NCBI GenBank assembly: GCA_025054935.1
Contig: JANWZD010000002.1
Coordinates: 402,131 to 434,505, forward strand
Origin: Dehalococcoidia bacterium
GTDB lineage: Bacteria > Chloroflexota > Dehalococcoidia > SpSt-223
Reading direction: 5' to 3'
Length of the DNA: 32,375 bases
Shown piece after piece: positions 1 to 9,232 of this stretch. Positions within the stretch are counted from its first letter, which is position 1. Every line of letters begins with the position of its first letter. The notes under the pieces are model-generated. The model was not told the DNA's origin and did not search any database. It worked only from the letters and a program-made list of their open reading frames with translations. A program made the translations under genes and the position numbers.

Positions 1-226
1 ACTCGGTGCCGGCATACTTCGCGTACAGCACCCGGTCGCCCACTTTCACTTCCATCGGCGAGCGCGTGCCGTTATCGAGGATGCGGCCGGGACCGACAGC
101 GACGACCATCCCCTCCTGCGGCTTCTCCTTCGCCGTGTCGGGCAGGACGATCCCGCTCTTCGTCACTTCTTCTTGCTTCAGCGGGGTAACGACAACGCGA
201 TCACCAAGCGGCCTGAGCTCAGCCAT
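1..226 (-). CDS. groES: Co-chaperonin GroES (3' end cut by window edge)
   Basis: The visible 75 residues begin [13 protein letters not shown] and include the family's [15 protein letters not shown] stretch, which covers the start of the mobile loop that contacts GroEL. Then comes the GxV-AVGPG strand and a [15 protein letters not shown] segment. GroES forms the heptameric lid of the cytosolic GroEL folding chamber. The ATG at 226 is preceded by a strong GGAGG ribosome-binding site seven bases upstream. A perfect CIRCE operator and a promoter lie upstream at 267-332, so the gene should be repressed by HrcA and induced by heat. The carboxy terminus, and presumably groEL, lie beyond the left edge. 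The family call is certain. Confidence 0.97.
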
Positions 227-369: not shown

Positions 370-624
370 CTAACGATCTTCTAATGTCTCGCCGAAGATC
401 AAAGCTTCAAGGCGCTCTGGCTGGTATCCCCACACCGCGACGCCGTCGATGACAGTGACGGGAGGAGTTTTGAAGCCGGCAGCGAGGAACTCCGCCCGCG
501 CCGCCGGATCGATCAGCACGTTTCGTGCCTCAAACGGCACCCCCAGCTCGCGAAGGAACTCCTTCACCACCCGACAGGGGCTTCAGCGATCATCCGTGTA
601 GAGAATGATGCGCTTCGTGTTCAT
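370..624 (-). CDS. Glutaredoxin/NrdH-like protein with in-frame UGA in the active site (putative selenoprotein, U-S-P-C)
   Basis: Reading through one UGA (585-583, codon 14) gives an 84-residue thioredoxin-fold protein. It starts MNTKRIILYTDDR, followed by UGA-Ser-Pro-Cys, then RVVKEFLRELGVPFE. It keeps the cis-proline segment TPPVTVIDG and a C-terminal GYQPERLEALI. The UGA sits exactly where glutaredoxins have the first cysteine of CxxC, so I infer a Sec-Ser-Pro-Cys redox site. A SECIS-like hairpin follows the UGA (550-567). The ATG at 624 overlaps the metF-like stop as ATGA, which supports this start and places it last in that operon. Without readthrough, translation could only begin at the GTGs near 570 and would lack the whole active site. 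Selenocysteine glutaredoxins are known in other bacteria. The alternative is a nonsense mutation or a sequencing error, since TGA differs by one base from the Cys codons TGC and TGT. Confidence 0.75.
550..567 (-). promoter_or_regulatory. SECIS-like hairpin downstream of in-frame UGA
   Basis: The minus-strand RNA folds as GUGAAGG-AGUU-CCUUCGC: seven base pairs, one of them G-U, closed by a four-base loop. The stem starts 15 bases after the UGA, and the loop lies 22 bases after it. As I recall them, the bacterial SECIS criteria are an apical loop 16-37 bases from UGA with a G in its first two positions, and both are met. It lies inside the reading frame, as bacterial SECIS elements do. Short hairpins can occur by chance in GC-rich DNA. 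Confidence 0.6.
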
Positions 625-1523
625 CGCGCTCCAACATAGGGCGTTGTCTGGATCACAGTGGCAATTGTGGCGCGCACTTCTTCGGCGATGTCCGGGCGAA
701 ATCCGAACAGCATCAGGTTCACGCCGTGAACGCCGCGGATGGACCGCAGCGCGCGCAAGGTCTCTGCAAACACGGCAAGCCCTTCGCGCTTGGGGTCAGC
801 TGCCTCTCGGATTCGGCTCAGGATATGCTCGGCAATGACGATTCGGAGCCGGCCGGGCACCCGCTCGACAGCGTCTCGGGAGAGAAGCGGCATCATCCCT
901 GGCAGCAGCCAGACAGGGCGGGACAATCGGGGACGGAGCGCGTCAAGAAACGCCTCCACCCGCTCTGCCTCATACACTGGCTGGGTGAGGAGAAATTCTG
1001 CGCCGGCTTCGGCCCGGCGTGCTGCCTGCTCCGCGGCTCGCTCCGCCGGAACGCTGTTGAGGTCGACCGCCGCGCCGACGAAGAAGGGCGCCCCGGCGTC
1101 CCGCCGCGCTGCCACGAGCCGGATCAGGCCGAAGGTACCAAGGTCATGCACCGGCTTTGCTTTGACCCCTTCCGGGAATTCATCGCCGCGCAGGCAGAGG
1201 ATGTTGCGGACATCGAGCGCCTCGGCGGAGATGAGGTCCGACTCGATTGCAAGGCGGTTCTGGTCTCGGGTGATGCAGACCCAGATCGGCTCGATGCCCT
1301 GCCGGACGAGCAGGCCGGCGGCAGTGAGACTGCCGAGCTGCGCTGTTCCTCCATGATTGTTCGTGACGGTGATCGCGCGGGCGAAGCGAGAGAGCGCAGC
1401 GGCACGCCGGAAGAATGCGCCGAGACGCGCCGAAGCAGGCGGCACGACTTCGCTGGTGACAACGAAGCGCCCCGCGGCGAGGTCCGCGGCGAGCCGGCTG
1501 ACAGCGCGCAGCGGCCCGCTCAC
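621..1523 (-). CDS. Methylenetetrahydrofolate reductase family protein (MetF-like)
   Basis: This 300-residue TIM-barrel flavoprotein matches the usual MetF length. Near the amino terminus is FVVTSEVVPP, in place of the family's FEFFPP strand, with the conserved Glu kept. VTNNHGG and the FAD-contacting CLRGDEFPEG follow, then GVNLMLFG near the end. Such enzymes convert 5,10-methylene-THF to 5-methyl-THF in one-carbon metabolism in the cytosol. The GTG start at 1523 overlaps the preceding CoA-transferase stop as GTGA, and its own stop overlaps the glutaredoxin start as ATGA, so the three genes are translationally coupled. The SEVVPP variant suggests a divergent MetF clade. The exact electron donor and substrate cannot be read from the sequence. 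Confidence 0.85.
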   Translation of the reverse strand: MSGPLRAVSRLAADLAAGRFVVTSEVVPPASARLGAFFRRAAALSRFARAITVTNNHGGTAQLGSLTAAGLLVRQGIEPIWVCITRDQNRLAIESDLISAEALDVRNILCLRGDEFPEGVKAKPVHDLGTFGLIRLVAARRDAGAPFFVGAAVDLNSVPAERAAEQAARRAEAGAEFLLTQPVYEAERVEAFLDALRPRLSRPVWLLPGMMPLLSRDAVERVPGRLRIVIAEHILSRIREAADPKREGLAVFAETLRALRSIRGVHGVNLMLFGFRPDIAEEVRATIATVIQTTPYVGAR

Positions 1524-3934
1524 TGAAGGACCTCGCCGAGATACGCGGCAACGAGCTCTTCCTCGTCGAGCCCGAGCAAGTCGCGCAGAACCGCCTCGGT
1601 GTGCTCGCCGAGCAAAGGCGGCCGCCGGACCGCTTCCGGCCCAATGCCCGACAGCTGAAAGCTCGGGCCATTGACCCGGACCCGCCCCAGCTCAGGATGG
1701 TCGAGGCGGAGGATCTTGCCCCGCGCGGCGAGGTGGGGGTCGCGGAAGAGGTCAGCGGCAGTTTGGACCGGTCCCGCGGGAACACCGGCAGCTTGGAGCA
1801 CCTCGGCGGCCTCTGCCGGCCTCCGCAGTCGGGTCCACGCCTCGATCGCCGCGTCGATCCGGCCGGCCGCCTGCTGCCGGCCGGCAAGGTCCGCAAGGGC
1901 AGGGTCAGCGGCAAGATCAGCGCGGCCGATCGCATGAGCGAGCCGCTGCCAGTCCTCGTCGCTCTCGCATGCGATGGCAACCCAACGGTCGTTCCCGCGG
2001 CAGCGATACACCCCATGCGGCGCTGCCTCAGGATGACGGTTTTCGCTGGGCCTTGGTACGACGCCGTTCACGGTGTAATCGAGGATCGCGGGTCCATTGA
2101 AGACGACCGTGCTCTCATGCTGCGAGAGGTCGATTAGCTGGCCCTCGCCGGTACGGTCGCGGTAGTGCAGCGCAGCCAGAATAGCGATCAGCAAATGGTA
2201 GGAGTTGCAGGAGTAATCGGGATGAGCAGTGCAGGACGCAACGGGAGGGTCGCCGGCGAACCCCGAAAGCGCGTTCAACCCGGCCGCTGGCCCGATCGTG
2301 TAGCCGAAACCGACGTACTGGGAGCGCGGTCCGGACCGCCCCATGACCGATGAGCGGGCCACAATGAGGTCAGGACGGATCTTCATCAGTTCGTCAGGAG
2401 TGAGGCCCCATTTCGGCAGCGGGTCGACGCCGTAGTTGTCGACCACGACGTCGGCAAGCGCGATCAGCCGTCGGAGGAGGGCGGGCCCGCCTTCGGTCGC
2501 CATGTTGATGGTGACGGAGCGCTTCGAAGTGTTCATGAGGGTGAAGATGCCGCTCTGATTCAGACTGTCGGTCCATGGCGGCCGCGGGAGCGCCATCACG
2601 CGCAGGCCGTCGGGATGAACGGCGCTCTCGATCTTCAGCACCTCGGCCCCATGGTCGGCGAGCACCTGCGTGGCAGCGGGACCAGCAATCTGCCAAGTGA
2701 GGTCGACGACCCGGATCCCCTCGAGCGGGAGCCGGCTCGGTCGGCGCGGGCGGGGGAGCGCGGGGCGGTCGCGCCAGCCTTCCGTATCATGCTCGCCGGC
2801 CGCGGGCGCAGGACGCCGGATTTGCCAAGGCGTCCGGCTCATTTTGAACGGCGCGCCGGGATAGCGGACGAGCGCTGTCTCGCCGGCCGGCAGACGGTGT
2901 TCGACCTCGACCCAAAAGTCGCGGGCGATGAGCTGCGGGTCGCGCTGAAGGTCGGCGACGTCGGCGACAGGGGCAGCGGCGAGGCGATGCGCCTGCGCCG
3001 CATCGGCAGCGAGCGTTTTTCGCTTGCCCGCAGCGGCTTGGCGGATCGCGGCGGTCAGCTCGGGGATATGCCGCTCGCGGAAGGCAGGGTCGGTCCACTC
3101 CCCGCCTTCGAAGGGCGCGGTGGGCACCCCCATCTCCTCGAGCCAAGCGAGCAGCCCGTCAAACCGGCCGCCCGGCCAAAAGGCGAGCCAGCCGTCGTCG
3201 CAGGGAAAGAAGAGCGAAAAGCCGGTGAAGGCGCGGTCGCCGAGGCGGGTGCGGAGATGCCCCATCAGGTCGAGCAGAGCGAGGTTGTTCTCCGTCGTGA
3301 AGACAATCGCGTCCTGCAGCGAGACATCGACCTGGCGGCCAACCCCGCGCATCCGGCTGTCGCGCAGCGCGACGAGCGCGGCCGCAGCGGCAACGATGCC
3401 GGCCTGCAAGTAGCCCTGCTCGCCGCCGAGATGCGTCGGCGGGCGGTCTGGCATTCCGCCGAGATGCACCAGCCCTCCCGTCGCCATCCCGATCAGGTCG
3501 GTGCCGCGCCAAGCGGCGCGCGGACCAGTTTGGCCGAAGGGAGTGATGGAGACAAGAACAAGGCGAGGATTGCACCGATGCAGTTCGGCGAGGCCGAGCC
3601 CGCGCTCAGCCAGCCAGCCGACCGGAAACGTTTCAACCAGCAGGTCGGCCTCGGCCGCCAGCTCGAGCAGCCGGCTGCGGCCATCGGCGCGCTCGAGATC
3701 GATCACGAGCGAACGCTTGCCGGCGTTGAACCACCAGTAACGGAGGCTCGCCCGGTCATCCCCCCGCGCATACGGCGGCCGCCGCCGTTCGGGGTCGCCG
3801 CCGGGAGGCTCAATCCGCAGGACATCTGCCCCCAGGTCAGCGAGGAGGCGGGTTGCATACCATCCGATCGGCCCAGCGAGGTCGAGGACACGCACATCGT
3901 CGAGCGCCCCCGCGGGGCGCAGAACGTCCGCCAT
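1520..3934 (-). CDS. Tandem-domain class III (CaiB/BaiF, Frc family) CoA-transferase
   Basis: The 804 residues hold two complete family III CoA-transferase domains, at about 10-370 and 402-800, where most relatives have one per chain. Both start with the family signature (VRVLDLAGPIGWY and IRVVDLTWQIAGP). Domain 1 has VSLQDA with Asp208 at the position of the catalytic Asp of formyl-CoA transferase. In domain 2 the aligned stretch is LSQHES, with Glu607 instead, as in some subfamilies. The protein should move CoA between carboxylic acids via acyl-aspartyl intermediates. The substrate is unknown. It follows a MaoC-like hydratase by 107 bases, which suggests dicarboxyl-CoA chemistry. An SD sequence GGAG five bases before the ATG at 3934 supports the start. 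The gene is coupled to metF by GTGA. Confidence 0.9.
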   Translation of the reverse strand: MADVLRPAGALDDVRVLDLAGPIGWYATRLLADLGADVLRIEPPGGDPERRRPPYARGDDRASLRYWWFNAGKRSLVIDLERADGRSRLLELAAEADLLVETFPVGWLAERGLGLAELHRCNPRLVLVSITPFGQTGPRAAWRGTDLIGMATGGLVHLGGMPDRPPTHLGGEQGYLQAGIVAAAAALVALRDSRMRGVGRQVDVSLQDAIVFTTENNLALLDLMGHLRTRLGDRAFTGFSLFFPCDDGWLAFWPGGRFDGLLAWLEEMGVPTAPFEGGEWTDPAFRERHIPELTAAIRQAAAGKRKTLAADAAQAHRLAAAPVADVADLQRDPQLIARDFWVEVEHRLPAGETALVRYPGAPFKMSRTPWQIRRPAPAAGEHDTEGWRDRPALPRPRRPSRLPLEGIRVVDLTWQIAGPAATQVLADHGAEVLKIESAVHPDGLRVMALPRPPWTDSLNQSGIFTLMNTSKRSVTINMATEGGPALLRRLIALADVVVDNYGVDPLPKWGLTPDELMKIRPDLIVARSSVMGRSGPRSQYVGFGYTIGPAAGLNALSGFAGDPPVASCTAHPDYSCNSYHLLIAILAALHYRDRTGEGQLIDLSQHESTVVFNGPAILDYTVNGVVPRPSENRHPEAAPHGVYRCRGNDRWVAIACESDEDWQRLAHAIGRADLAADPALADLAGRQQAAGRIDAAIEAWTRLRRPAEAAEVLQAAGVPAGPVQTAADLFRDPHLAARGKILRLDHPELGRVRVNGPSFQLSGIGPEAVRRPPLLGEHTEAVLRDLLGLDEEELVAAYLGEVLQ

Positions 3935-4041: not shown

Positions 4042-4923
4042 TTACGGCGCCGCCGGGCGCGCGGTCGCGCTGCCGACAACGGCAGTTTCGCCGCGCTCAT
4101 TCACCACCCAAACGCGGCAGGTGACGCGGTCGGCCACCTCTTCGACAAGGGCGCCGTGCGCGGTGACCCGTTCGCCGGCGTAGCAAGGACGGACAATTTT
4201 ACAGTCAAGGGTGCCGCCGACCTGCCAGCCGGCGCCGAAGCGAGCGAACATCATGCGGCAGACCGGCGCGATGACGAGCGCGCCTTGGGCCAGGGGCGCA
4301 GGATGACCGTGGCGGTGGGCAAGTTCGACGCTCGTGTGGCCATTCTCTTCTCCTGGTCCTTCAAAGGCACGCATCCGCTCCAGCGTCAGGTCGAACGCGA
4401 CCGGTTGAAGCAGTTCACGAGCCGGCCGCTCATCTTGGGGCGGCTGCGCAGCCCGCTCCGGGACGCGCTCGGCAGCGCGGCTCGGCCCAAAGAACGCCCA
4501 CGTTCTCGTGGCGACCGCGATCGGGGTGGCGCCATCGAAGATGTCGAGACGATAGGCGACGAAGAGCCGGTCCCGCCGCCGCCAGCGGTCGGTGATCGTC
4601 GTGCGCGCTGTCACGGTCCGGCCGACGAAGATCGGTCCGCGCGCCTCGAAGCCGATCGCCGCGAGCACGCCGTTGAAATCGCGGCGGGGAGGAAAGGCAT
4701 TCTGCCCCGCGTAGTAGAAGATGGAGTTCGGCGCGACGGGGCCGCCCCACGGAGACGGGCCGGTATACCAGGGATGATGGTCGTCGTACAGGTCGCACCA
4801 GCGCGCGACTTCCTCCGCCGAGATAGTCAGTTCCAGTTCCGGCCACCCTCGATCCTCCGCCAGCCAGTCGAAGTCGAGGGGCTCGGGCACCTTCGGCAGC
4901 TTGTAGGTGAGCGGAACGCGCAT
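4042..4923 (-). CDS. Double-hotdog MaoC/FAS1-like acyl-CoA dehydratase (hydratase)
   Basis: The 293-residue protein has two hotdog units. The N-terminal half has a WCDLYDDHHPWY segment and a GPVAPNSIFYYAG helix. The C-terminal half has the HGHPAPLAQGAL helix region typical of MaoC hydratases that act on 2-enoyl-CoA. The family includes mesaconyl-CoA and mesaconyl-C4-CoA hydratases. Pairing with a class III CoA-transferase downstream recalls the mesaconyl-CoA transferase and mesaconyl-C4-CoA hydratase of the Chloroflexus 3-hydroxypropionate bicycle, but that is inference only. The ATG at 4923 has GGAGG five bases upstream, and a -10 box TACAAT lies further up, so this is the first gene of the operon ending with the glutaredoxin. 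Confidence 0.82.
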   Translation of the reverse strand: MRVPLTYKLPKVPEPLDFDWLAEDRGWPELELTISAEEVARWCDLYDDHHPWYTGPSPWGGPVAPNSIFYYAGQNAFPPRRDFNGVLAAIGFEARGPIFVGRTVTARTTITDRWRRRDRLFVAYRLDIFDGATPIAVATRTWAFFGPSRAAERVPERAAQPPQDERPARELLQPVAFDLTLERMRAFEGPGEENGHTSVELAHRHGHPAPLAQGALVIAPVCRMMFARFGAGWQVGGTLDCKIVRPCYAGERVTAHGALVEEVADRVTCRVWVVNERGETAVVGSATARPAAP

Positions 4924-4940
4924 TCTTGCCTCCGCCGCTC

Positions 4941-4964
4941 ATTGTACCGCCCGTCCGATACAAT
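4941..4964. promoter_or_regulatory. Divergent -10 elements forming an inverted repeat between hydratase and phosphatase genes
   Basis: ATTGTA (4941-4946) and TACAAT (4959-4964) are exact reverse complements 12 bases apart. Each reads as a -10 box for the gene on its own side. The minus-strand box would start RNA about seven bases before the hydratase SD. The plus-strand box ends seven bases before the GTG at 4971, suggesting a leaderless phosphatase message. The two promoters would occlude each other. The repeat could instead be a regulator's operator. Confidence 0.5.
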
Positions 4965-4970
4965 CCGAAG

Positions 4971-5585
4971 GTGACGACAACCATCTACCTCTGCCGCCAC
5001 GCCGAGGTGCACAACCCCGACCGCATCCTCTACGGGCGGCTTCCCGGGTTTGGCCTCAGCCGCGCTGGTCACGAACAGGCGGCACGCCTCGCCGCCTACC
5101 TCAGCGCCCAGCCGCTCGCCGTCATCTATACCAGCCCGCTGCTGCGCGCGCGTCAGACCGCTGCCTATGCCCTTGCGCTCCAGCCGGAAGCGCGGCTGAT
5201 CATCGCTCAAGGGCTGCACGAGGTCTTCACCTCATGGCAGGGGAAACCGTGGTCGCAGCTGAGCGGAGCGATGTATTACGAGCCGCCCGCCGACCCCGGC
5301 GATGAGACGATGCTCGACGTCGCGCGCCGCATGCGGGGCTTCCTCGAGCATGTCGTGCGGTGTCATCCGGGTCGGGCGGTCGCTGCCTTCAGCCACGGCG
5401 ACCCTATCGCCATCGTGCTGATGGCGCTTCACGGTCTGCCGCTGAGCGAGCGCGAGCTCCGCCGCAACCGGACGTTTTATCCGGACCTCGCCTCGGTCAA
5501 CCGCCTTGTTTTCGATGCCGAGGGCACCCTCATCGAGCGCACTTACCTCGCGCTCCAGCAGCTGCCCGAAGTTTCCCGCCTCTAG
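4971..5585 (+). CDS. Histidine phosphatase (phosphoglycerate mutase-like) family protein
   Basis: The 204-residue protein opens with TTIYLCRHAEVHNPDR. The LCRHAE stretch corresponds to the catalytic RHGE/RHAE motif whose His becomes phosphorylated. TSPLLRARQTA and the later AFSHGDPI carry the remaining phosphate-pocket Arg and the second His. The family covers cofactor-dependent phosphoglycerate mutases and broad small-molecule phosphatases. The length and the lack of mutase-specific inserts favour a phosphatase, substrate unknown. The start was taken at GTG 4971, just before the first strand. No convincing SD is present, but a TACAAT box lies seven bases upstream, consistent with a leaderless transcript. 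The gene is divergent from the hydratase operon. Confidence 0.88.
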   Translation: MTTTIYLCRHAEVHNPDRILYGRLPGFGLSRAGHEQAARLAAYLSAQPLAVIYTSPLLRARQTAAYALALQPEARLIIAQGLHEVFTSWQGKPWSQLSGAMYYEPPADPGDETMLDVARRMRGFLEHVVRCHPGRAVAAFSHGDPIAIVLMALHGLPLSERELRRNRTFYPDLASVNRLVFDAEGTLIERTYLALQQLPEVSRL

Positions 5586-5912
5586 CGAGGAAGCGCGCCG
5601 CATCGACCCGCTGGGCGGCTGAGCAGCATGCCGCCGGACACGCCGAGACGTCCGTCGAGCGCGCGCCGCGCCGTCGCGAGACAGCTCCCCGGCGGCAGCA
5701 GCAGGCGGCCGGCCCGCCGCCTCTTCCATCGGGGGGAGCTGACCGCGCTTCAGCAGCTGGAACGGGAATGGCGATACCGCTAACACCCTCCGGTCTCCTC
5801 AAGGCGAGGCTCCCAGCGACAGGCTGCTGCAACAGGAGGAGGCAGGGGCCGGGTGGGAGAAGCTGAGGCCGCCTGCGCCGAAGCACGGCGGGCGCATTCT
5901 TCCGCCGAGCGG
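5586..5912. other. Intergenic region without a recognisable gene
   Basis: This 327-base stretch separates the phosphatase and lipoprotein genes, which converge. No protein family, tRNA or clear terminator is visible. The only reading frame I would keep as a possibility is a 51-residue basic ORF at 5628-5783. Longer open frames on the minus strand encode low-complexity Arg/Ala/Pro sequence typical of GC-rich non-coding DNA. Confidence 0.6.
5628..5783 (+). CDS. Possible small basic protein, 51 residues
   Basis: The ATG at 5628 opens a 51-codon frame ending in TAA at 5781-5783. The first 30 residues are rich in Arg, Ser and Pro. The tail, RRLFHRGELTALQQLEREW, looks like an amphipathic helix. 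It lies 42 bases after the phosphatase stop on the same strand, so it could be cotranscribed. No good SD is seen and no family is recognised. It may equally be chance coding in GC-rich intergenic DNA. Confidence 0.25.
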   Translation: MPPDTPRRPSSARRAVARQLPGGSSRRPARRLFHRGELTALQQLEREWRYR

Positions 5913-6998
5913 TCAGTTAGCGTAGCCCGTCAATTCGGCGTAGCCGCGCCCGCGGATCGGAACGCCGTTTCGCTCGCCGGTCACTGCCACCGCACCCTCC
6001 CAGTAGGCGACACCGGTCTGTTCAGTGACCAGCTCTTGGTCGGCCAGCTTGGGCGTCACCACGAGCCGCACACCGTCCACAGGAATAGCAATCTCCCAGC
6101 CGGCAGGGTAGGTCGCACCGGTGCGGGGGCTGGTCCACCGCGCGGTGACGGTAAGGGCGAACTCGTCAACAGGGAGGTCGACTGCTGTTCCGTCTGGGTC
6201 GATCCGGGTGGCGAAGCGGTCGTACGGCTGGCCGGTGGTCTGGTCGCGGATCTCATAGACCATATAGTCGGTGCCATCCTCAAGCTGAAGGCAGAACCAA
6301 TCCCAGCCGCCGCCGAGCAGGGCGATGAAATCGCCCCACTGATGGTCCATCCACGCCTCGCCTGTGACGGCACGTTCGACCCCGCGGTCGAGCAAGGTGC
6401 CGGCAACGCGCATGCGCGGGCGCGAGTAGTAGTAGGAGTAGCCGGCCTGGCCATACTGGATCAGCCCGGTGCCTTTGTGGAGCACGGCGGGCTTCGTGGC
6501 GATGAGCGTGAGGTCGATGGCATAGCCGGGCAGGGCAGCACGGAGCCGATCGACCCCCTCCCGCCCCTCGATGGTCCAGTCGCCGACATTCAGCCAAATG
6601 CCCGGGCGGGCGCGCCGTGCCTCATCGGTCAGCAGGGGAAGCCGGTCAGGACGGCTCTCGCTGCGCTCGGCGTAGTGGAACTCGCCGCGCGCGATGTCCG
6701 AGATCGCGAAGTGGGCCAGATAGAGCGGAGGGAGCCGTCCTCGGAGCACCTGGAATACCACGAGCTCAAAGCCGACTTCGCGCCCGTCGTCAAGGTCGAG
6801 GTGGCCCGTGTAGTACCACCACTCCATGAGACGGTCGTGCGCTCCCTCATCCTCGGGAAGGCGCACCGTGGGGAAGGGAGGCGCAGGCCCGGCGGCCGGT
6901 GTCTCGGGAAGCTGCCCGTCTTGCGGGATCGTCCCCGGAAGGCTGCAGGCGGTGAGGAAGAAGAGCAGAACCAGGGCGAGGAGCGGGCGCCGCGTCAT
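5913..6998 (-). CDS. AttH/CrtC-like lipocalin-domain lipoprotein
   Basis: The 361-residue protein starts with a lipoprotein signal (MTRRPLLALVLLFFLTAC, lipidated Cys18), so it should be anchored outside the cytoplasmic membrane. The mature part has EWWYYTGHL near the start and AWMDHQWGDF in the middle. Both are typical of the AttH/hydroxyneurosporene synthase (CrtC) two-lipocalin fold. ATG 6998 overlaps the stop of the MMPL gene as ATGA, so the two are translationally coupled and probably act together. AttH-type proteins more often accompany ABC permeases. CrtC members hydrate carotenoids, but the exported location and transporter partner favour a lipid-binding or lipid-handling role. That role is inferred. 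Confidence 0.85.
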   Translation of the reverse strand: MTRRPLLALVLLFFLTACSLPGTIPQDGQLPETPAAGPAPPFPTVRLPEDEGAHDRLMEWWYYTGHLDLDDGREVGFELVVFQVLRGRLPPLYLAHFAISDIARGEFHYAERSESRPDRLPLLTDEARRARPGIWLNVGDWTIEGREGVDRLRAALPGYAIDLTLIATKPAVLHKGTGLIQYGQAGYSYYYSRPRMRVAGTLLDRGVERAVTGEAWMDHQWGDFIALLGGGWDWFCLQLEDGTDYMVYEIRDQTTGQPYDRFATRIDPDGTAVDLPVDEFALTVTARWTSPRTGATYPAGWEIAIPVDGVRLVVTPKLADQELVTEQTGVAYWEGAVAVTGERNGVPIRGRGYAELTGYAN

Positions 6999-9232
6999 CG
7001 CGCCGCCTCCGCAAAGCTGGTCCGCTCGTGCTCGACCCGAGGCAGCAGCCGGTCGAGCGAGGGCGGGAGCCACCAGTTCCAAGCCCCCAGCAGCCGCATC
7101 GTCGAGGGGACAACAAGGGCCCGAACGAGCGTCACATCAACCGTCACCGCAATCGCAATCCCAAGGCCAAGCGCTTTGACCAGGATCATGTCGGCGGAAA
7201 GAAAGGCGATGCTGACGGCAACGACGATCAGGGCTGCGCTCGTGACGATGCGCCCGCTTCGCTCGAGCCCCTCGGCGACCGCTCGGAGGTTATCGCCCGT
7301 CTGCTGATACACCTCCTGCACCCGGGAGAGCAGAAAGACCTCGTAATCCATCGACAGCCCGAACAGCGCGCAAAACATGATCACCGGGATCGACGCTTCG
7401 ATATATCCCAGCGGCGTAAAGCCAAGCACGCTGCTCAAGTTGCCATGCTGGAACACCCAAACGAGGGCGCCGTAGCTGGCGACGATAGAGAGCAGGTTCA
7501 TCACAATCGCCTTCAGCGGCAGCAGCAGAGAGCGGAACAGCACCAGCAGCACGAGATAGGTGACCGCCATGATCGCGGCGATTGCGATGGGGAAATCGCG
7601 ATAGAGAGTGTTGACGTAGTCGACGACCCCGGCGGAGCCGCCGGTCACGAGTACCGTAAATTCCAGCGGCCGACTGTTCCGAAGCGCGCCCACCAGCTCG
7701 TACGAACGCGGGTCGGTCATTCCGTAGCGGCTGATGACGCGCACGACGGTGGTGTCGCCGCTTACCAAGCCGCGGACTGCCGCTTGGACGAAGGCGTCGC
7801 TGATCCGGTCAGGATTAGCGTACATCAGCAGGTAGTGGTCGAGCGTGAACCGCGGGTCGAGCGAGACGATGCTTTCGACGCGGCTGACCGCCGGATGCGC
7901 TTGGATCCGCCGAACGTACTGGTCTAAGGCAGCAAGGTTGGCAGGGTCGAACAGTGCGCCGTTGCGCGCTTGGACCGCGAGCAGGATCGGCGTCGTTTCG
8001 GTTGCCGGAAACCGGCGGTCGAGGAGCTCAAAGGCCTCCCGCGACGGTGTGCCCGCAGGAAGGATGGAGGCATCCGGGGCCCCCAGCTTGATCTGCAGGA
8101 ACGGCGCCCCCAAGCTGAGGAGGACGATCATGGTCGGGATGAGCACGATGCCCGGGCGGCGCATCACGTTTGTCGCCAGCCGCCGCCAGAACCCCTCCTC
8201 TCGCGGACGGAGCGCCCACGGGAGCGGCAGGGCGTTGACGCGTCGGCCAAGGATCGACAGCACGGCCGGGAGGAGAGTGAGTGCGGCGGCGACCGCGAGG
8301 AGCACGACCACAACCCCGCCGATGCCGACGGAACGGAGGATATTGAACCGGAACGCAATCAGGGCAGCTAGCCCGATGGCGACTGTCAGCCCGGAGAAGA
8401 ACACCGCGCGTCCCGCTGTCGCCACCGTCGCGACGGTCGCTTCGGCGACACTCGGAGCGCGCTCAAGCTCCTCGCGGAAGCGGCTGACGATGAAAAGGGA
8501 GTAATCGACGCCGAGGCCGAGCCCGAGCAGAGTGGCGACATTGAGCACAAAGATCGAGAGCGGCGTCACTTGGGCGATGCCGGCAATCAAGGCGAGCGCA
8601 ATCGCGGCCGCCACCCCGCCGACAAGCGCCGGCAGCAAGGCGGCCACAACCGAGCGAAAGACAAACAGCAGCGCCGCCGCAGCGAACGGAATAGCAAGCA
8701 GCTCGGCGCGCCGGAGATCGTTCTCGCTGACGCGCTGGATATCCTCGTAAAAAATCGGCCCGCCGCCCAAAGCGAGACGCAGGTCGGGCTGCGCGGTCAG
8801 CCGCTGCTCAATCTCGGCGGGGAGGTTTGGCAGCTGCTCAGCGCGGCGGTCGAGGATCACCGTGACATAGGCAGCCTTTCCGTCGCTCGCGATCTGCTCC
8901 GGCGCCGCCGTGAACGACTTGACTTCCTTCACCAGGGGCCACTGACGGAGCGTCGCCAGCGCTGCCTCGCTCTGCGCGACAAACTCCGGCGTCCGCGCAT
9001 CGAGACGCTCGCTCGTCATGATGACCTGCACCGCGACGCCATCGAGGCCGAGCCGTTCTCCCAGCAGCGCAAGCGCGCGCTGCGACTCGAGGTCGTCGCT
9101 CGCAAAACCGCCGGGGCGGAGCGTCTTCGCGACTTGGGGCAAAAACGGGAGGCTGATCGCAAACGCTGCTGCCCAGAGCAGGATGATTAGCCAACGAAAC
9201 TGGACTGCTCGGCGACCAATCGCGCTAAACAC
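6995..9232 (-). CDS. MMPL/RND-family lipid or hydrophobic-compound exporter
   Basis: The 745-residue integral membrane protein has the MMPL layout. One N-terminal TM helix (WLIILLWAAAFAISL) precedes an extracytoplasmic loop and a five-TM bundle, and the pattern then repeats. The proton-relay Asp-Tyr pairs are present in both halves, in GLGVDYSLFIVSRF and FGLSMDYEVFLLSR. MMPL proteins use the proton gradient to export lipids or hydrophobic compounds. I chose GTG 9232 (MFSAIGRRAVQFRW). A strong promoter lies at 9270-9298, and GTG 9265 is too close to its -10 box to be in the transcript. A GGAG sits ten bases before 9232. The downstream lipoprotein is coupled by ATGA. Confidence 0.9.
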   Translation of the reverse strand: MFSAIGRRAVQFRWLIILLWAAAFAISLPFLPQVAKTLRPGGFASDDLESQRALALLGERLGLDGVAVQVIMTSERLDARTPEFVAQSEAALATLRQWPLVKEVKSFTAAPEQIASDGKAAYVTVILDRRAEQLPNLPAEIEQRLTAQPDLRLALGGGPIFYEDIQRVSENDLRRAELLAIPFAAAALLFVFRSVVAALLPALVGGVAAAIALALIAGIAQVTPLSIFVLNVATLLGLGLGVDYSLFIVSRFREELERAPSVAEATVATVATAGRAVFFSGLTVAIGLAALIAFRFNILRSVGIGGVVVVLLAVAAALTLLPAVLSILGRRVNALPLPWALRPREEGFWRRLATNVMRRPGIVLIPTMIVLLSLGAPFLQIKLGAPDASILPAGTPSREAFELLDRRFPATETTPILLAVQARNGALFDPANLAALDQYVRRIQAHPAVSRVESIVSLDPRFTLDHYLLMYANPDRISDAFVQAAVRGLVSGDTTVVRVISRYGMTDPRSYELVGALRNSRPLEFTVLVTGGSAGVVDYVNTLYRDFPIAIAAIMAVTYLVLLVLFRSLLLPLKAIVMNLLSIVASYGALVWVFQHGNLSSVLGFTPLGYIEASIPVIMFCALFGLSMDYEVFLLSRVQEVYQQTGDNLRAVAEGLERSGRIVTSAALIVVAVSIAFLSADMILVKALGLGIAIAVTVDVTLVRALVVPSTMRLLGAWNWWLPPSLDRLLPRVEHERTSFAEAAR

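Follow-up and report, generated by a model that had tools for sequence, protein, structure and literature searches.

The window, the whole stretch of 32,375 nucleotides that we analysed, belongs to a 3.57-Mb draft genome (93 contigs, 96.8% complete). An earlier reading of the sequence alone (the sequence-only reading) had guessed that the host was a member of the Chloroflexota, and this proved right, the class being Dehalococcoidia. The part of the window considered here carries the following features:

1..226, minus strand: groES, downstream of the glutaredoxin gene and running off the window; shares 93% identity with its counterpart at the corresponding position of a same-genus genome
265-292: TTAGCACTC-N9-GAGTGCTAA, a CIRCE element (HrcA operator), immediately upstream of groES
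370..624, minus strand: selenocysteine (Sec)-containing glutaredoxin (NrdH/YruB-like), 84 aa, U14-S-P-C17
550..567, minus strand: predicted bacterial SECIS hairpin, GUGAAGG-AGUU-CCUUCGC, 7 bp, with the loop at 560-557 containing G559 and U558
574..576, minus strand: TGT, the predicted resolving cysteine C17 of UxxC
585-583, minus strand: in-frame TGA (codon 14), the predicted selenocysteine codon, where the first active-site cysteine would stand (U-S-P-C)
621..624, minus strand: ATGA overlap of the MetF-like stop (TGA at 623-621) and the glutaredoxin start
621..1523, minus strand: MetF-like protein (PF02219 MTHFR, E 1.5e-19), upstream of the glutaredoxin gene in the same operon-like run
1520..3934, minus strand: CoA-transferase family III protein, 804 aa, with PF02515 matched twice in one chain; overlaps the MetF-like start

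The product of 1..226 is presumably GroES.

The glutaredoxin frame runs on the minus strand from ATG at 624-622 to TAG at 372-370, and its sole internal stop is the one TGA; the translation is MNTKRIILYTDDRUSPCRVVKEFLRELGVPFEARNVLIDPAARAEFLAAGFKTPPVTVIDGVAVWGYQPERLEALIFGETLEDR, followed by the terminal stop. These coordinates bear out the sequence-only reading, which had described an intact glutaredoxin frame with UGA in place of the first active-site cysteine, a start fixed by a four-base overlap with the MetF-like gene (the ATGA at 624-621), and GTG codons near 570 (at 570-568 and 567-565, both 3' of the UGA). With U taken as Cys, the frame matched Pfam Glutaredoxin PF00462 with an E value of 5.8e-13 and 49.3 bits, against a cut-off of 22.9. 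Searching the whole genome with PF00462 gave three glutaredoxin-like loci, and only that at 370-624, which scored over the cut-off, had a TGA inside (one TGA).

The order CoA-transferase, MetF-like, glutaredoxin, GroES is conserved in one same-genus genome. At the more distant glutaredoxin loci tested there was no MetF match, and the neighbours were sigma-70, NUDIX, glyoxalase, cytochrome c or DinB-like genes. The linkage of a Sec-glutaredoxin to MetF and CoA-transferase genes, to which the sequence-only reading had drawn attention, is therefore real in the window and in that one relative, and is found at none of the more distant loci tested. Since a linkage that is common to the genus and absent from the other loci tested says little about function, we dropped the idea of a functional tie between the glutaredoxin and MetF or the CoA-transferase.

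We next compared the gene with its relatives. When 393 genomes of the same class were searched at the protein level, 177 had matches, and DNA was retrieved for many of these. Among 67 distinct loci, the codon aligned with U14 was TGA in 57, TGC in seven and TGT in three, with no other codon seen; the second cysteine of the active site was present in 65 of the 67. Homologues thus have UGA or Cys at the active-site position, the two states that the sequence-only reading had proposed to look for, and the random stop codons elsewhere in relatives' frames that would have spoken against selenocysteine did not appear: the only stop was TGA, only at the active-site codon. This pattern shows that the TGA at codon 14 is not there by chance. 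All of the closest relatives read TGA here (75% identity for the same-genus Dehalococcoidia bacterium KatS3mg060, followed by 57% and 52%). A sequencing error is very unlikely, since the same TGA recurs in the separately deposited same-genus genome and in dozens more. When the window gene was compared with the same-genus copy 3' of the UGA, the differences fell at codon positions 1, 2 and 3 in the numbers 6, 10 and 35, such that 35 of 51 were at third positions; 27 of the differing codons were synonymous and 13 non-synonymous. This third-position bias indicates purifying selection on the protein sequence encoded 3' of the UGA. Ordinary annotation takes the TGA as a stop, and in a draft genome it might mark a glutaredoxin gene that is truncated or decaying into a pseudogene, or else a miscalled Cys codon; however, its recurrence in loci from many families, the third-position bias beyond it and the complete Sec machinery described below leave that explanation with hardly any probability. 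The clade of the window protein was seen again in a phylum-wide sample, with one Cys orthologue (L121, TGC) among TGA relatives. A UGA-glutaredoxin also lies on a contig labelled Rubrobacter sp. (Actinomycetota; L054), and an identical glutaredoxin sequence occurs in L120, from a genome classed as Chloroflexota; the L054 label or binning may be wrong.

The genome encodes the machinery for selenocysteine insertion. The search for selA, selB, selC and selD that the sequence-only reading had proposed, and in which a lack of selB/selC would have told against Sec, found all four. There was one strong tRNA-Sec match (68 bits, with the next best at 39.8), and a second, independent call returned tRNA-SeC with anticodon TCA (UCA); in the genome search selB scored over its cut-off, selA reached 559 bits and selD 397 bits. 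The selD gene likewise contains an in-frame TGA, within the motif GAG-U-ACK, so at least one other gene in this genome has UGA at a known Sec position. Counting a match of E 1e-11 or better as strong, and with genome sets compiled by hand, we found a strong tRNA-Sec in 60 of 66 class genomes with a UGA-glutaredoxin and in 196 of 327 other class genomes (Fisher p 3.6e-7, among genomes that are related); the six UGA-glutaredoxin genomes lacking a strong match are drafts. tRNA-Sec is common in the class anyway and the genomes are related, and we treat this co-occurrence as supporting evidence only. On one contig (L025 and L056; G073:C24), about 3.5 kb separate a tRNA-Sec gene (33272-33365) and the UGA-glutaredoxin (29493). 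The L056 locus also has, at 4819-7092 on the minus strand, a single 757-aa frame that combines a Cysteinyl-tRNA-synthetase catalytic domain with a family-2 glycosyltransferase domain. A code change or suppressor by which UGA is read as Trp or Cys would fit a frame that is open with TGA as sense, but this too is extremely improbable, given that the MetF, SelA, SelB, TrxB and MsrA frames have no TGA within them and MetF terminates in one, that TGA occurs only at redox-active positions (glutaredoxin and SelD) in the loci examined, and that the UGA is accompanied by a SECIS hairpin that tracks it.

The hairpin at 567-550 folds alone with an energy of -8.5 kcal/mol, and the spacing from UGA to loop is 22 nt. 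The published bSECIS model has a stem of 4-16 bp, a loop of 3-9 nt with G among the first two loop bases, a spacing of 16-37 nt and an energy of -7.5 kcal/mol or lower (PMC13188914); the window hairpin satisfies every one of these constraints. Scanning the window's first 2000 bases and three loci against Rfam gave no match to a SECIS family, and bacterial SECIS elements are probably too variable for Rfam. Folding of a single sequence is weak evidence (the z-score here was a modest -1.7), and we therefore used a synonymous-shuffle test over the relatives. A perfect stem was present in 48 of the 57 UGA loci, compared with 0.72 expected from the shuffles, and in none of the ten Cys loci, these raw counts being inflated by shared ancestry among loci that are not fully independent. 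The loop was GU in 56 of the 57. Stem position is fixed across relatives, in two registers that differ by one base, and the stem shows paired changes (UA/CG, GC/AU, CG/GC, AU/GC and GC/UA). In a larger set of 80 sequences, with a hairpin counted at 6 or more of 7 pairs, hairpin and GU loop occurred together in 59 of the 66 Sec loci but in none of the 14 Cys loci. The tree requires about ten Sec/Cys changes, at least five of them on well-supported branches; in five independent Sec/Cys contrasts the hairpin tracked the codon in about four and went the opposite way in none, numbers too few for significance. Combined, the shuffles and the phylogenetic contrast make a strong comparative case that the hairpin acts as a SECIS. 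In L121 (G486:C373), the TGC orthologue that belongs to the window protein's clade, where the other members have UGA, the hairpin stem is partly eroded.

The GTG codons 3' of the UGA could in principle start a functional product, at 570 or 567, that lacks the active site. However, both GTGs code the conserved V-V of C-R-V-V, GTG 567-565 lies within the SECIS stem, and the codons 5' of the UGA code a conserved stretch that relatives retain; we regard a downstream start as very improbable. We conclude that the gene at 370-624 is genuine and encodes a selenoprotein of a known kind, a new member of the Sec-glutaredoxins.

The closest solved structure to the window protein is PDB 7c10 (40% identity over 73 aa), the Cys form of glutaredoxin-1 (cGrx1) of Clostridium (Alkaliphilus) oremlandii, which is natively a selenoprotein (PMC7642778). 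The gene, the machinery, the hairpin and the selection on the frame are established by the observations above, and we are highly confident of the whole reading, in which the gene encodes an NrdH/YruB-type dithiol glutaredoxin with a catalytic Sec, decoded by SelB and SECIS, with Cys17 resolving and TrxB as the most likely reductant. Judging from the anatomy of the locus and from comparison, SelB and Sec-tRNA(UCA) would decode the UGA at 585-583 as directed by the hairpin at 567-550. The Sec14 selenolate would then attack a disulfide or other oxidised substrate and Cys17 would resolve the Se-S intermediate, both as described for cGrx1, and thioredoxin reductase, not glutathione, would most likely return the oxidised enzyme to its reduced state.

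TrxB was found in the window genome. Glutathione synthetase (PF02955), the one family of small-thiol synthesis that the search covered, had no match there. The C-terminal V-W-G-Y-Q-P of the window protein resembles the NrdH signature. On these three points TrxB-dependent reduction is our favoured guess, and a fairly probable one. Glutathione or some other small thiol could instead recycle the same selenoprotein, as happens with classical glutaredoxins, and cGrx1 is described as GSH-reduced (PMC7642778); the presence of TrxB and the lack of a match in the search with PF02955 alone stand against this, making it the less likely route, though one with an appreciable chance. As for the pairing of Sec-glutaredoxin with Sec-MsrA in C. 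oremlandii, the window genome has an MsrA, and it lacks a TGA.

That Sec-glutaredoxins are known in other bacteria, as the sequence-only reading stated, is well established: they form a recognised family (PF00462, UxxC), with ten from the Sargasso Sea (PMC1088965), three listed in 2006 (PMC1794560) and coverage in a review (PMC13188914, its refs 85 and 109). Our literature search, with subscription papers outside its coverage, found no report of one for Dehalococcoidia. Our data show that Sec-glutaredoxin genes are far commoner in this class than the literature so covered states, and this breadth is a more interesting by-product than the single gene. Longer frames (~160-170 aa) that have an active-site TGA and a GU-loop hairpin occur in L049, L052, L076, L081-L086 and others; L049, the sole long-form locus examined with Pfam, has a C-terminal PDZ domain. 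A Cys version of the ~160-170 aa glutaredoxin (L001) is present in the window genome. In L038, L051, L098 and L107 the Sec-glutaredoxin continues into a long C-terminal extension, for a total length of ~210-260 aa, and Pfam gave no match on the extension of L051, the sole extended locus examined. We lean towards the view that the Chloroflexota, chiefly Dehalococcoidia, possess many and varied Sec-glutaredoxins, among them short forms, PDZ fusions and forms that are much extended at the C terminus, and that Sec and Cys have been exchanged repeatedly; the window clade would then be a distinct, Sec-dominated subfamily outside NCBIfam cut-offs that uses thioredoxin reductase in glutathione-free cells. 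Several natural Sec/Cys exchange pairs, with the hairpin retained or lost, make the timing and cause of the Sec-to-Cys swap testable. Standard annotation would truncate such genes at the UGA, and the active site would be lost.

Among known families, the best NCBIfam matches of the window protein were NrdH (TIGR02194, 44.6 bits against a cut-off of 85.75) and YruB (TIGR02196, 56.1 bits against 88.55), which are of similar length and have Cys where the window protein has Sec. Scores for two UXX-star models fell far short of their cut-offs (NF041211, 21.7 bits against 100; NF041212, 28.8 against 66). The window protein falls under the cut-off of every NCBIfam model that it matched, so such proteins are probably absent from databases; perhaps it works like NrdH even though it scores below the NrdH cut-off. 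The UXX-star families (NF041212, NF041211 and NF041114) are also glutaredoxin-like selenoproteins, but the window matches to them are weak and, by contrast with them, the window protein retains the second Cys (UxxC). It differs from cGrx1 in its active site (U-S-P-C, compared with U-P-H-C), at the cis-Pro place (P-P, compared with V-P), and in belonging to another phylum, another gene neighbourhood and a genome without a detected glutathione synthetase. With cGrx1 it nevertheless shares the glutaredoxin domain, Sec for the first Cys at the aligned place, and the resolving Cys.
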